Source of the DNA: Protaetiibacter intestinalis
Lineage (GTDB): Bacteria; Actinomycetota; Actinomycetes; Actinomycetales; Microbacteriaceae
DNA length: 64,000 nucleotides
Assembly (NCBI RefSeq): GCF_003627075.1
Contig: NZ_CP032630.1
Span: 744,001-808,000 of the forward strand
Direction of reading: 5' to 3'
Positions within the stretch are counted from its first letter, which is position 1, and every line of letters starts with the position of its first letter. Positions 21,426-45,353 of the stretch are shown here, piece after piece. The translations under genes and the position numbers were made by a program. The notes under the pieces are model-generated. The model was not told the DNA's origin and did not search any database. It worked only from the letters and a program-made list of their open reading frames with translations.

Positions 21426-21495
21426 GTCCCCGAAAGTACGTACTTTTGGGCGCGACACGCCGCGCCCAGACCCAAAAGCACGTACTTTCGAGGAC
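21426..21495. repeat. AAAGTACGTACTTTTGGG inverted repeat (element R3)
   Basis: Arms 21426-21450 and 21471-21495 are inverse complements at 23 of 25 positions; the core CGAAAGTACGTACTTTTGGG is followed by GGGCGCG and then CGCGCCC, extending the stem across the 20-base spacer. It begins directly after the galK TGA. The same word recurs at 22770 and 45295. A terminator role is plausible, but the shared sequence is not explained by that alone. Confidence 0.85.
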
Positions 21496-21604
21496 CCTGG
21501 CAGTTGCCTCCGTATGCGCGCGAATCGCCGCGGGCGGGGTTGCGGCATCCCCGGAATCTCGGAATCGTGGCCGACTCCGAAACCCAAGGGAAAGGGGAAC
21601 CGCA

Positions 21605-21880
21605 ATGCTCACCCTCACCGAGAACGCCGGAACCGTGGTCTCCGACCTCGTCGCACGCGCGAGCGAGGTCGACACCGCGGGGTTGCGCATCCAGCAGGGC
21701 GCCGACCGCTTCGACGTCGCCATCGCGGATGCGCCCGCGCCGAGCGAGGTCGTCGTCGAGCAGGCGGGGGCACGCGTCTTCATGGACGCGCCCGTCGCCC
21801 GGGTGCTCGAGGAGATGACGCTCGACGCGGTCGTCACCCCGGAGGGCGAGATCCGTTTCGCCCTCGCGCCGCAGCGCTAA
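21605..21880 (+). CDS. HesB-like A-type carrier homolog without cysteines
   Basis: The 91-residue protein opens [18 protein letters not shown] and continues with [19 protein letters not shown], the pattern of HesB/IscA-like proteins. A true A-type Fe-S carrier has three conserved cysteines (one central and a C-terminal CGCG-type pair); this protein has none. Similar cysteine-free HesB-like proteins are known from actinobacteria and their role is undefined. The ATG follows AAGGGAAAGGGGAACC. Its stop overlaps the convergent folD stop by four bases. Confidence 0.75.
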
Positions 21881-22758
21881 CCCAGCGCGCGCTCCGCGGC
21901 CTCGACGACGTTCGCGATGAGCATCGCGCGCGTCATGGGCCCGACGCCGCCGGGGTTCGGCGAGAGCCATCCCGCCACCTCGGCGACGTCGGGATGCACG
22001 TCGCCCGCGAGCTTGGCACGCCCGGACTCGGTGGTGCCGACGCGCGTGACGCCCACGTCGAGCACCGCGGCGCCGGGCTTCACCCACTCGGGCTTCACGA
22101 AGTGCGGCACGCCGACGGCGGCCACCACGATGTCGGCCCGCGCCACCTCGGCGGCGATGTCGGGCGTGCGCGAGTGGGTGAGCGTGACGGTCGCGTCGAC
22201 GCCCTTGCGGGTGAAGACGAGGCCGAGCGGGCGGCCCACCGTGAGGCCGCGGCCGATGATCGTGACGTGCTTCCCGGCGATCGGCACCTCGTGGCGGCGC
22301 AGCAGCTCGACGACGCCCGCGGGGGTGCACGGCAGCGGGGAGTGCAGTTCGCCGTCGACGCCCAACACGAGCCGCCCGAGGTTGGTGGGGTGCAGACCGT
22401 CGGCGTCCTTCGCGGGGTCGATCAGCTCGAGCATCGCGTTCTCGTCGATGCCCTTCGGCAGCGGCAGCTGCACGATGTAGCCGGTCACCTCGGGGTCGGC
22501 GTTGAGTCGCGCGATCGCCGCGCGCACATCCGCCTCGCTCGCATCCGCCGGCAGCTCCTCGCGGATCGAGCGGATGCCGACCTCGGCCGAGTCGCGGTGC
22601 TTGCCGCCGACGTAGCTCACCGAGCCCGGATCCGCCCCCACGAGCAGCGTGCCGAGCCCCGGCACGACGCCGCGCTCCGCGAGCGCCGCGACCCGCGCCG
22701 TCAGCTCCCCCTTGATCGCGCTCGCCGTCGCGATCCCGTCCAGCACCCGTGCGCTCAT
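21877..22758 (-). CDS. folD: methylene-THF dehydrogenase / methenyl-THF cyclohydrolase
   Basis: The 293-residue bifunctional enzyme has the FolD motifs [14 protein letters not shown] (with the catalytic Tyr-Lys region), [23 protein letters not shown] and the NADP-binding [16 protein letters not shown], ending [16 protein letters not shown]. In FolD the Lys follows YVxxK, here YVGGK. It interconverts methylene-, methenyl- and formyl-THF in the cytosol. It lies downstream of glyA on the same strand, separated by element R4, so one-carbon genes are grouped and may share the ZTP switch through readthrough. Confidence 0.94.
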
Positions 22759-22769
22759 GTCATCTCCGT

Positions 22770-22827
22770 GAAAGTACGTACTTTTGGGCCATCCCGCCCC
22801 TCCTGGGCCCCAAAAGTACGTACTTTC
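22770..22827. repeat. AAAGTACGTACTTTTGGG inverted repeat (element R4)
   Basis: GAAAGTACGTACTTTTGGG at 22770-22788 is perfectly inverted at 22809-22827 (19 bp) with a 20-base spacer. It lies 25 bases after the glyA stop (leftward) and 11 bases before the folD start. It therefore sits between two cotranscribed-looking genes, where a hairpin could limit readthrough from glyA into folD. Confidence 0.85.
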
Positions 22828-22852
22828 GGGGACAGGTGGGGGGAGTCGGGGG

Positions 22853-24145
22853 TCAGGACCAGGTGGTGGGGCTCGTGAGGCCCTCGTAGAGCGGGAAGGC
22901 CTCGGCGAGGCTCGCGACGCGGGCGCGCAGGGCCGGGATGTCGGCGTCCGGCTGCAGGGCGAGCGCGATGACGTCGGCCACCTCGGTGAACTCGGCGTCG
23001 CCGAAGCCGCGCGTCGCGAGCGCCGGGGTGCCGATGCGCACGCCCGAGGTCACCATCGGCGGGCGCGGGTCGTTCGGCACGGCGTTCTTGTTGACCGTGA
23101 TGCCGACCTCGTGCAGGCGGTCCTCCGCCTCCTTGCCGCTGAACTCGGAGGTGCGCAGGTCGACGAGCACGAGGTGCACGTCGGTGCCGCCGGTGAGCAC
23201 GTCGATGCCCGCCGCCTTCGCATCCGGCTGCGTGAGACGCTCGGCGAGGAGCTGCGCCCCGCGGATGGTGCGCTCCTGACGGTCGCGGAACTCCGGCGTG
23301 CCGGCGAGCTTGAACGCGGTCGCCTTCGCGGCGATGACGTGCATGAGCGGGCCGCCCTGCTGGCCGGGGAAGACGTTCGAGTTGATCTTCTTGGCGATGT
23401 CCTCGTCGTTGGTGAGGATGAAGCCGGAGCGCGGGCCGCCGATCGTCTTGTGCACGGTCGAGCTCGTGACGTGCGCGTGGGGCACGGGCGAGGGGTGCAG
23501 GCCCGCGGCGACGAGGCCCGCGAAGTGCGCCATGTCGACCCACAGCTTCGCGCCCACCTCGTCGGCGATGGCGCGGAACGCGGCGAAGTCGAGCTGGCGC
23601 GGGTAGGCGGACCAGCCGGCGATGATCACCTGCGGCTGGATCTCGAGGGCGACGCGGCGCACCTCGTCGAGGTCGACGCGGAAGGTCTCGGGGTCGACCT
23701 TGTACGAGTGCGCCTCGTAGAGCTTGCCCGAGAAGTTGAGCTTCATGCCGTGGGTGAGGTGGCCGCCGTGGGCGAGCTCGAGACCCAGGATGCGGTCGCC
23801 GGGCTGGGCGATCGCGGCGAGCACGGCGGCGTTGGCGGAGGCGCCCGAGTGGGGCTGCACGTTGGCGTAGGCGGCGCCGAAGAGCTCCTTGGCGCGCTCG
23901 ATCGCGAGGGTCTCGACGACGTCCACGAACTCGCAGCCGCCGTAGTAGCGGCGGCCCGGGTAGCCCTCGGCGTACTTGTTGGTGAGCACGGAGCCCTGCG
24001 CCTCGAGCACGGCGCGCGGCACGAAGTTCTCGGAGGCGATCATCTCGAGGGTCGACCGCTGGCGGCCGAGCTCGGCCTCGAGTGCGGCGGCGACCTCGGG
24101 GTCGACCTCGGCGAGCGGGGACAGGAAGGTGGATTCGGCGGACAC
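22853..24145 (-). CDS. glyA: serine hydroxymethyltransferase
   Basis: The 430-residue PLP enzyme has [28 protein letters not shown], the PLP lysine in [13 protein letters not shown], and [11 protein letters not shown]. It converts serine and THF to glycine and methylene-THF. The GTG start at 24145 is preceded by GAGGAG. A ZTP riboswitch lies 45 bases upstream in the leader, which fits control by ZMP/ZTP, the alarmone of folate/one-carbon shortage. Downstream follow element R4 and folD. Confidence 0.96.
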
Positions 24146-24189
24146 TGGCGCTCCTCACGTCACGTAAAAACTACCCGGTACGGGGTGAG

Positions 24190-44191: not shown

Positions 44192-44192
44192 G

Positions 44193-44252
44193 TGGCGCGG
44201 TTTCGGCCCGATGGCGCGGTTTCGCGGGTGCCATCCGGCCGAAACCGCGCCA
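44193..44252. repeat. TGGCGCGGTTTCGGCC inverted repeat (element R7)
   Basis: Arms 44193-44215 and 44230-44252 match inversely at 22 of 23 positions, around a 14-base spacer. The word TGGCGCGGTTTCG also recurs directly at 44212-44224. The element fills the whole 65-base gap between two convergent stops, so a bidirectional terminator function is likely. Confidence 0.8.
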
Positions 44253-44256
44253 TCCG

Positions 44257-45234
44257 CTACGGCAGCAGGCCGAGGGCGCGCACCGCGTCGCGTTCGGCGA
44301 CGAGCTCCGCCGCGGAGGCCGCGATGCCCGCGCGCACGGCATCCGAGAGCTCGAGCCCCTCGACCACCTGCCACTCGCCGCCCGCGCTCGTCGCGGGGAA
44401 CGAGCTCACGAGGCCCGCGGGCACCCCGTAGAGTCCCGTGCTCGGCAGCGCGACCGACACCCAGTCGCCCTCCCGGGTGCCGAGCACCCAGTCGCGCACG
44501 TGGTCGATCGCGGCGGATGCGGCGCTCGCCGCCGACGACGCCCCGCGCGCCGCGATGATCGCGGCCCCGCGGTTCGCGACCGTCGGCACGAACTCGTCGG
44601 CCACCCACTCGGGCGCGAAGCCGACGGGCTCCCCGTCGAGCAGCAGGTGCGAGGGGTCGGGCACCTGAGTGGAGGAGTGATTGCCCCAGACGGTCATCCG
44701 CGTGAGCCGACCCACCCCCACGCCGAGCTTCGCCGCGAGCTGCGCGAGCCCGCGGTTGTGGTCGAGACGCGTCATCGCGGTGAAGCGTTCGGCGGGCACG
44801 TCCGGCGCGTGTGCCTGCGCGATGAGGGCGTTCGTGTTGGCCGGGTTGCCGACCGCGAGCACCCGGATGTCGTCGGCGGCGTGGTCGCCGATCGCGCGCC
44901 CCTGCGGGCCGAAGATGCCCGCGTTCGCAGCCAGCAGATCACCGCGCTCCATCCCTGCGGTGCGCGGCCGGGCGCCCACCAGCAGGGCGACGTTCGCCCC
45001 CTCGAAGGCGGCATCCGCGTCGTCGAAGACGTCGACGGAGTCCAGCAGCGGGAAGGCCGCGTCCGCGAGCTCCATCGCCGTGCCCTCGGCGGCGGCGACC
45101 GCCTGCGGGATCTCGAGCAGCCGCAGCCGCACCGGGGAGCCGCCGAGCATGTCGCCCGCGGCGATGCGGAAGAGGAGGGCGTAGCCGATCTGACCGGCGG
45201 CGCCCGTGACGGTCACGGTGATGGGGGTGCGCAC
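44257..45234 (-). CDS. mdh: malate dehydrogenase
   Basis: The 325-residue enzyme has the NAD-binding [23 protein letters not shown], the substrate-binding [40 protein letters not shown], and the catalytic His in [14 protein letters not shown]. It belongs to the cytosolic-type actinobacterial [12 protein letters not shown] replaces the usual GARPRxxGM. The GTG start is preceded by a terminator and element R5, which isolate it from icd upstream on the same strand, so the two TCA-cycle genes are adjacent but probably separate units. Confidence 0.95.
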
Positions 45235-45263
45235 CCCTTCACGCTACGCGCCGTGCACGCCGG

Positions 45264-45289
45264 AAGGCCGGGCCCAAGGGCCCGGCCTT
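45264..45289 (-). terminator. 12-bp terminator-like hairpin between icd and mdh
   Basis: AAGGCCGGGCCC (45264-45275) and GGGCCCGGCCTT (45278-45289) are perfect inverse complements with 2 bases between. The A-run/T-run ends and high G/C stem are typical of actinobacterial intrinsic terminators. It follows icd and element R5 in the leftward direction, and lies 29 bases before mdh. Confidence 0.8.
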
Positions 45290-45294
45290 CTCCG

Positions 45295-45353
45295 CGAAAG
45301 TACGTACTTTTGGGCGATTCCTGGACTCGGGCGCCCAAAAGTACGTACTTTCG
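45295..45353. repeat. AAAGTACGTACTTTTGGG inverted repeat (element R5)
   Basis: The 22-base arm CGAAAGTACGTACTTTTGGG plus CG at 45295-45316 is perfectly inverted at 45332-45353; spacer 15 bases. It begins 7 bases behind the icd stop in the leftward sense. An ordinary terminator hairpin lies immediately beyond it, so R5 does not need to be the terminator. Confidence 0.88.

Follow-up and report, generated by a model that had tools for sequence, protein, structure and literature searches.

Three short palindromic elements lie in a 64,000-nucleotide stretch of the Protaetiibacter intestinalis chromosome (contig NZ_CP032630.1, positions 744,001 to 808,000; the window): one behind galK, one between glyA and folD, and one behind icd. 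All three belong to a single repeat family, here termed R1, in which an arm (TCCNCGAAAGTACGTACTTTTGGGS) is followed by a variable centre and then by the inverted arm. At a probability of about 0.6, we read these elements as paired protein-binding sites that are also dispersed, non-autonomous copies of a two-part system, made up of a nuclease gene and the palindrome that brackets it. The nuclease gene tied to R1 lies ~1.0 Mb outside the window in the same genome (G000, a single contig of 3.1 Mb).

R1 copies in the host genome and the genus

An initial annotation of the window had marked paired inverted arms at three unlinked 3' ends and had pointed to the rest of the genome as the place to look for more. 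The paired arms were as described, with all six present and none expected in 100 shuffles, although the full element (arm TCCNCGAAAGTACGTACTTTTGGGS, centre and inverse) extends slightly further than had been marked. The three sites were real but an undercount: a covariance model run on both strands of G000 returned 60 strand matches (E < 1e-14, well separated from the next match), corresponding to 30 elements, as R1 counts are given throughout as strand matches divided by two. Arms with at most one mismatch numbered 58, against 0 for the control.

Matches to the R1 model were obtained in eight of nine genus genomes (G000 to G008). The four genomes with an R1-type nuclease carry 30, 23, 21 and 18 elements, and those lacking it carry 13 (G005), 5 (G004), ~8 (G006), a few (G008) and 0 (G007). 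Several of the G008 matches and two of those in G006 were rejected as R1 and assigned to a different family, CGAGTAGTCG. No p-value is attached to these counts, because the model was derived from G000 and the genomes are related. Each genome has its own version of the arm (CTTTTGGG in G000, CTTCTGGG in G003, TTTTCG in G002 and GTGAGAGTACGCACTTC in G001), and the exact 14-mer of the arm core was found in none of 51 searched genomes outside the genus.

A putative AbiEi-like nuclease is encoded between two R1 elements

Comparison of neighbouring genes across genomes identified one orthologous open reading frame (ORF) with R1 on both sides in G000, G001, G002 and G003. The G000 product is 303 amino acids long; its ATG lies 2 nt from one R1 element and its stop codon falls inside the other. 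By profile, its G000 neighbours are a thymidine phosphorylase gene, on a side common to seven of the nine genomes, and an adenosine deaminase gene, on a side common to four of those seven. When locus flanks were compared by blastn, alignable flanks showed 80–94% DNA identity, and the nuclease 66–74% or no alignment. Most nuclease clades sit at a fixed locus by this comparison. As a universal rule this was discarded: L159, and L147 relative to L164, have no flanks in common with their nearest relatives, and L155 has one side only. At the corresponding locus of G005 (L352), a nucleoside-hydrolase-like ORF, recognized by eye, lies between adenosine deaminase and thymidine phosphorylase beside short tandem repeats. 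Elsewhere in G001 (L128:3371-5072), a short ORF with a GIY-YIG-like T5orf172/MUG113 domain lies between two elements of R1 type.

Among 22 homologues, Pfam MTES_1575 REase (PF18741) matched 18 and DUF559 matched 5 (E up to 0.01), and the best PADLOC AbiEi model matched 11. The structure predicted for the nuclease (predicted local distance difference test score, 92) matched three PDB entries: Rv2827c (1zel; 259 columns, E = 2e-4, template modelling (TM) score 0.39–0.43), the catalytic domain of I-Bth0305I (3r3p; target TM score 0.75, E = 0.05) and Vsr (1vsr; E = 0.25). Glu-194, Asp-227, His-244 and Asp-254 are invariant in 22 of 22 proteins, a candidate E-D-H-D set of the EDxHD nucleases, alongside a Vsr-like catalytic fold that is weak by E-value. 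The encoded protein is modelled as an AbiEi-like part joined to an MTES_1575/Vsr-like nuclease, resembling an EDxHD homing-endonuclease domain plus an AbiEi-like antitoxin. An operon with an AbiEii (DUF1814) toxin was not seen in G000, where the adjoining genes on either side encode enzymes of other kinds.

Nuclease type matches palindrome type

In the nine genus genomes, 33 homologues of the nuclease were collected, of which 30 are given as loci, together with 80 named loci that are the best among the matches listed. The named loci are mostly from Microbacteriaceae, with others from Arthrobacter, Paenarthrobacter, Phycicoccus, Mycobacterium and metagenome-assembled genomes (MAGs); two of them, L170 and L172, repeat the G001 and G006 loci. 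Flanks were called matched when the best match between the 5' and 3' flanks scored at least 16. Matched flanks were found at 23 of the 30 genus loci, and mismatched pairings reached the threshold in 1 of 120 cases. Among 90 genes drawn at random, 4 did so: the nuclease, a gene with an element on either side, and genes in L084 and L092. For the named loci the corresponding values were 48/80 and, for mismatched pairings, 2/240; at a score of at least 20 they were 33/80 and 1/240, the sole strong mismatched pair being L209 with L174, two loci of one Herbiconiux genome. A hairpin was present in both flanks at 31 of the 48 matched loci and in at least one flank at 42, compared with 1 and 6 for random stretches of the same loci, and the flank match was at least 48 bp long at 25 of the 33 loci scoring at least 20.

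The homologues have matched flanks of their own that differ in sequence. Palindrome similarity tracks nuclease identity across the 60 loci whose flanks match (Mantel rho = 0.21, equalled in 0 of 1000 permutations). All 18 pairs with more than 80% nuclease identity have like palindromes (score of at least 15), two of these pairs being the duplicated loci, and none of the 1653 pairs with less than 45% do. Two loci showed further peculiarities. L171, on a contig labelled as an Acidobacteria MAG (JABBOD010000043.1), encodes a 46% identical nuclease with matched flanks bearing the same GAGAGTACG core, which may reflect either horizontal transfer or a misbinned contig. At L213 (Paenarthrobacter), the matched stretch on either side of the nuclease contains the repeat twice in tandem, not once.

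The pairing of type with type predicts that a genome with a different nuclease should hold a different dispersed palindrome, and this held for G007. This genome, without R1, contains 27 forward and 26 reverse arms of the palindrome of its own nuclease (reversed-word control, 0), and no other genome has more than 4 of these per strand. A dispersed family likewise goes with L155, the second nuclease of G000 (forward arms, 37, control 1; reverse arms, 34, control 0), and two more dispersed families, with 4 and 2 paired copies, were found in 400 kb of G008.

Arms, register and centres

Pairing between the arms was analysed in 77 copies from five genomes, with 20 arm pairs per copy. Among copies between co-directional genes, mispairs on the transcribed strand comprised 23 G·U and 29 A·C (p = 0.49). 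An intrinsic terminator would keep its RNA pairing, with G·U allowed and A·C not, and this excess of G·U was not seen. Arm pairing within G000 elements (540/600) was no higher than after shuffling arms between elements (544; z = −0.98), and covariation was within noise in G002 (z = 0.11) and G003 (z = 1.27). An alignment of 11 G000 copies shows no variation in either arm at TCC, G, A and most of AGTACG.

Spacing is rigid. The register between 14-mers is 42 bp in 27 of 30 G000 copies and 41 bp in the other 3, and 41 bp in 13 of 16 G002 copies; all 23 fetched copies of the G007 family are exactly 56 bp long, with near-identical arms around differing 16-nt centres. Centres are mostly unlike within a genome (mean identity 0.45–0.49 in G000, G002, G003 and G007, with 0.45 in G000), and alike in G001 (0.74); because they are unlike elsewhere, recent copying is clear in G001 only. 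The rigid register, the unlike centres and the lack of covariation in G000 fit a pair of evenly spaced protein sites more readily than an RNA stem.

A candidate centre motif, GACACGCC or its inverse, was seen in 9 of 30 G000 elements, 2 of 15 in G003 and, in other genera, 4 of the 48 centres from named flanks. It was absent from the centres of G001, G002, G005 and G007, and was rejected as a shared motif. In elements of the G001 type, each half is a near-palindrome of the half-site GTGAGAGTACGCA, giving four half-sites (e.g. L142:1366-1445). These recall the Rv2827c promoter, for which four repeats are reported (PMC7319586).

The window elements and their neighbours

Features of the window are as follows; genes were placed with a home-made coding-score caller instead of being taken from an annotation.

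21427..21494, no strand, R1 behind galK; two inverted arms, register 42 bp; same junction without the element in G008
21433..21446, no strand, left arm core AAAGTACGTACTTT of the galK element
21475..21488, no strand, right arm core AAAGCACGTACTTT of the galK element, 1 mismatch
22765..22832, no strand, R1 between glyA and folD; two inverted arms
45291..45357, no strand, R1 between icd and a terminator-like hairpin; register 41 bp
45264..45289, minus strand, terminator-like hairpin after icd; 12-bp stem
20259..21425, plus strand, galK, galactokinase, by profile
21877..22746, minus strand, folD, by profile; start codon from the home-made caller
22853..24145, minus strand, glyA, serine hydroxymethyltransferase, by profile
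44257..45234, minus strand, mdh, malate dehydrogenase, by profile
45361..46578, minus strand, icd, NADP-dependent isocitrate dehydrogenase, by profile

The elements are 68, 68 and 67 bp long in this order. Arm cores start at 21433, 21475 (1 mismatch), 22771, 22813, 45297 and 45338, with a chance expectation of 0 (100 shuffles), and the gaps to the stop codon are 1 nt (galK), 20 nt (glyA) and 3 nt (icd). Because the glyA–folD and icd–mdh pairs are co-directional, two of the three elements also lie upstream of a gene, which qualifies their description as 3' ends. The initial annotation was right that a terminator already follows the icd copy, at least as a terminator-like hairpin (45264-45289). 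An Rfam search of the window brought only a tRNA and a ZMP/ZTP riboswitch to threshold, with no known RNA family at the elements; the riboswitch (RF01750, 60 bits) is at 24185-24270 on the minus strand, upstream of glyA.

Placement was scored for 99 copies (R1 in five genomes plus the G007 family). None lay within a gene, and 15 were in gaps between divergent genes. The closeness to stop codons noted in the window extends to some genomes and not to others. Copies within 10 nt of a stop made up 21 of 23 scorable copies in G000, against 13.2 expected for random placement in the gap (five divergent copies, one at the contig edge and one in a gap above 400 bp were left out), and 11 of 13 in G002 (5.3 expected). 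Values in G003 (9/12; 8.0 expected), G007 (6/20; 5.9) and G001 (3/10; 3.1) were at or near expectation, and stop-codon targeting as a universal rule was dropped. The initial annotation had noted that the three window genes are all metabolic; among the copies whose neighbours were identified, no reason was seen for a tie to metabolic genes.

Gain and loss at orthologous junctions

Each junction of the window is occupied in some species and empty in others. Between glyA and folD, R1 is present in G000, G002, G004 and G005, and other palindromes take its place in G006 (GAGGCGTCA), G003 (CGAGATGTC) and G001 (GAGGGGACGC-like); the junction is empty in G007 and G008, so that four palindrome families occur at it across species. 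By eye, the palindromes of G006, G003 and G001 resemble those of nucleases in the same genomes (L143, L151 and L149, respectively). Behind icd, R1 is found in G000 and G001, a remnant in G005 and no element in the remaining six genomes, of which five (G003, G004, G006, G007 and G008) have a terminator-like hairpin there by eye. The galK junction is empty in G008.

The glyA–folD element has identical arms in G000 and G002 (40/40), with a centre matching at 9 of 20 positions; this insertion appears inherited, because the two genomes share both the flank and an odd arm variant. Over 15 orthologous-site pairs, arms were identical at 524/600 and centres at 165/300 positions, no different from random non-orthologous pairs (0.876 and 0.526), and conservation at orthologous sites was accordingly rejected as a general sign of inheritance. 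Inheritance is indicated at glyA–folD, by the shared flank, and for the pair L091:1706/L106 (centre 16/20); elsewhere, identities at the random-pair level make inheritance indistinguishable from repeated insertion.

Discussion

The initial annotation had offered a mobile or homogenized element, a binding site and a common RNA processing signal as separate possibilities. The first two are jointly supported by the many copies, the presence and absence between species, the arm-by-arm conservation at fixed spacing and the bracketed nuclease gene. The third finds no support in the G·U to A·C ratio on the transcribed strand or in the absence of within-element covariation in G000.

We propose a system in two parts. 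One would be the gene for a Vsr/EDxHD-type nuclease with a fused AbiEi-like DNA-binding part, mostly inherited at a fixed locus and having a copy of its own palindrome on either side; the other would be the roughly 20–35 copies of that palindrome dispersed between genes. Arms of 20–25 bp in elements of 56–68 bp suit two monomers of such a fusion, which is why arm reading and nicking are proposed. Two nuclease monomers would sit on the two inverted arms at their fixed spacing, the AbiEi-like part reading each arm and the nuclease part nicking or cutting at or near the element. Repair or strand transfer might then place and maintain copies wherever they are tolerated, chiefly on the 3' side of genes. 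Binding and cutting are suggested by analogy with the related proteins discussed below. Spreading would account for presence and absence between species, for several families at one junction and for the alike copies of G001.

Several observations weigh against this interpretation. Matched flanks above threshold were lacking at 7 of the 30 genus loci and at 32 of the 80 named homologues, including L241, L242 and L248 of Mycobacterium. As to the domain assignment, the G000 protein (P0001) falls below the curated cut-offs of both its Pfam matches (35.0 vs 38.2 and 21.2 vs 22.2), Pfam AbiEi_1 matches just 1 of 22 homologues, the TM score of the Rv2827c match is low and the E-values of the I-Bth0305I and Vsr matches are weak. 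Arm covariation is present in G001 (z = 3.9), centres within a genome are mostly unlike, and the R1 counts depend on a model built from G000. Empty sites were found, yet neither a target-site duplication nor an exact insertion boundary can be read at the present divergence. In G005 (an assembly 89% complete, with split genes) the usual locus lacks an R1-type nuclease, yet 13 well-kept elements are present besides the remnant; because of these good elements, decay of elements in the absence of the nuclease is unsupported as a clean rule. Finally, cutting at all 30 sites would harm the chromosome, so cutting must be limited or absent.

The chief rival, which we regard as unlikely, is that the palindromes are host-selected operators. 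The AbiEi-nuclease, or its ancestor, would be a DNA-binding regulator, a chromosome-marking factor or a defence factor, with autoregulatory palindromes at its own gene and selected sites elsewhere. Rigid spacing, unlike centres and the missing covariation in G000 fit operators, as do the fixed locus of most nuclease clades and the glyA–folD element, inherited with its arms intact and its centre changed. AbiEi proteins are reported to autoregulate via inverted repeats (PMC7319586). Operators would not, however, be expected to lie so seldom between divergent genes (15 of 99 placed copies), to be gained and lost between species with four unrelated families at one junction, or to stand at the 3' end of the nuclease gene, where none is needed.

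A family of bidirectional terminators or mRNA 3'-end hairpins, homogenized for an RNA function, would explain why the elements form a strong hairpin on either strand and lie near stop codons in G000 and G002. We consider it improbable: G·U and A·C mispairs are as 23 to 29, arm covariation is confined to G001 among the four genomes for which it was scored, icd has a terminator-like hairpin already (also seen in five of the six relatives without the element), and element sequence tracks nuclease type. About as improbable is an ordinary miniature inverted-repeat transposable element or insertion-sequence relic moved by an unrelated transposase, with the nuclease genes as mere frequent neighbours. 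Terminal inverted repeats, dispersed copies, empty sites and G001 copies alike through the centre are what such a relic would leave, but the genome lacks a Y1 transposase (the one transposase family searched), and a neighbour effect does not give the match of nuclease and palindrome type over 60 loci and several genera. An origin from phages or plasmids was also rejected, with relatives in 1 of 50,697 phage records and 8 of 72,556 plasmid records, all below 60% identity.

Among known systems, the nuclease and its palindromes read as REP/RAYT-like, built on an unrelated nuclease. RAYT genes are bracketed by REP palindromes with lineage-specific, dispersed copies. The present system has the same arrangement, with short palindromes bracketing one enzyme gene, scattered between genes and specific in sequence to the gene lineage, as with REP/REPIN elements and their RAYT (TnpA-REP) gene. 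It differs in its AbiEi-like and Vsr/EDxHD-type enzyme, in two-arm elements of 56–68 bp and in the lack of pairing covariation in G000. No match to the Y1 (HUH) transposase PF01797 was obtained in G000 (E up to 0.001), whereas 5 of 14 control genomes were positive. The REP tag, GTAG or CGTC, stands at the hairpin foot in 0 of 77 copies, 66 of which begin with TCC and 11 with CCC. A RAYT system proper was rejected, because the nuclease has no relation to the RAYT enzyme and the arms do not behave like those of REP elements.

AbiEi-type type IV antitoxins (AbiEi, Rv2827c) share the best PDB match (1zel), the AbiEi model found in 11 of 22 homologues and the paired inverted repeats. AbiEi and Rv2827c are reported to bind 23-bp inverted repeats in pairs, with 3 or 13 bp between the repeats (PMC7319586). 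The nuclease differs in its C-terminal nuclease domain, in having no AbiEii-type direct neighbour in G000 and in the ~30 extra repeat pairs across the chromosome. With the EDxHD homing endonuclease I-Bth0305I and with Vsr it shares the catalytic-domain fold and the E/D/H/D set; I-Bth0305I is reported to dimerize on a target of nearly 60 bp (PMC3943268). Unlike EDxHD homing endonucleases, the present gene is a free-standing chromosomal one, with many intact site-like copies in the genome. The MTES_1575-type REase (PF18741) and DUF559 families take in 18 and 5 of 22 members, respectively. The protein on which the MTES_1575 type was founded is described as a giant HEPN/transglutaminase/helicase fusion (PMC3710099), whereas the protein here is small and comes with cognate palindromes.

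No description of a nuclease–palindrome pairing, and nothing on the arm word or on DUF559 linked to palindromes or transposition, was found in the literature searched, whose partial coverage (subscription papers and preprints were mostly outside it) makes this absence weak. More tentatively, and at somewhat less than even odds, we suggest that Actinomycetota may have evolved a convergent, hitherto undescribed class of small system, selfish or domesticated. Its AbiEi-nuclease fusions would propagate their own ~60-bp paired sites across the chromosome and police them, using site-specific cleavage followed by repair; several families would coexist in one genome, and each nuclease would co-evolve with its palindrome.

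The nuclease genes recur across Microbacteriaceae and other sampled Actinomycetota, without an assigned role as far as was found. Since they come with a readable DNA partner, their specificity should be predictable from sequence, family by family, and dozens of natural nuclease/site pairs would be at hand for studying the evolution of DNA recognition. Such a system would also account for recurrent palindromes downstream of genes, which annotations might list as terminators. If the sites are spread or maintained by the nucleases, they would represent a second, independent origin of REP-like genome colonization, achieved without an HUH transposase.

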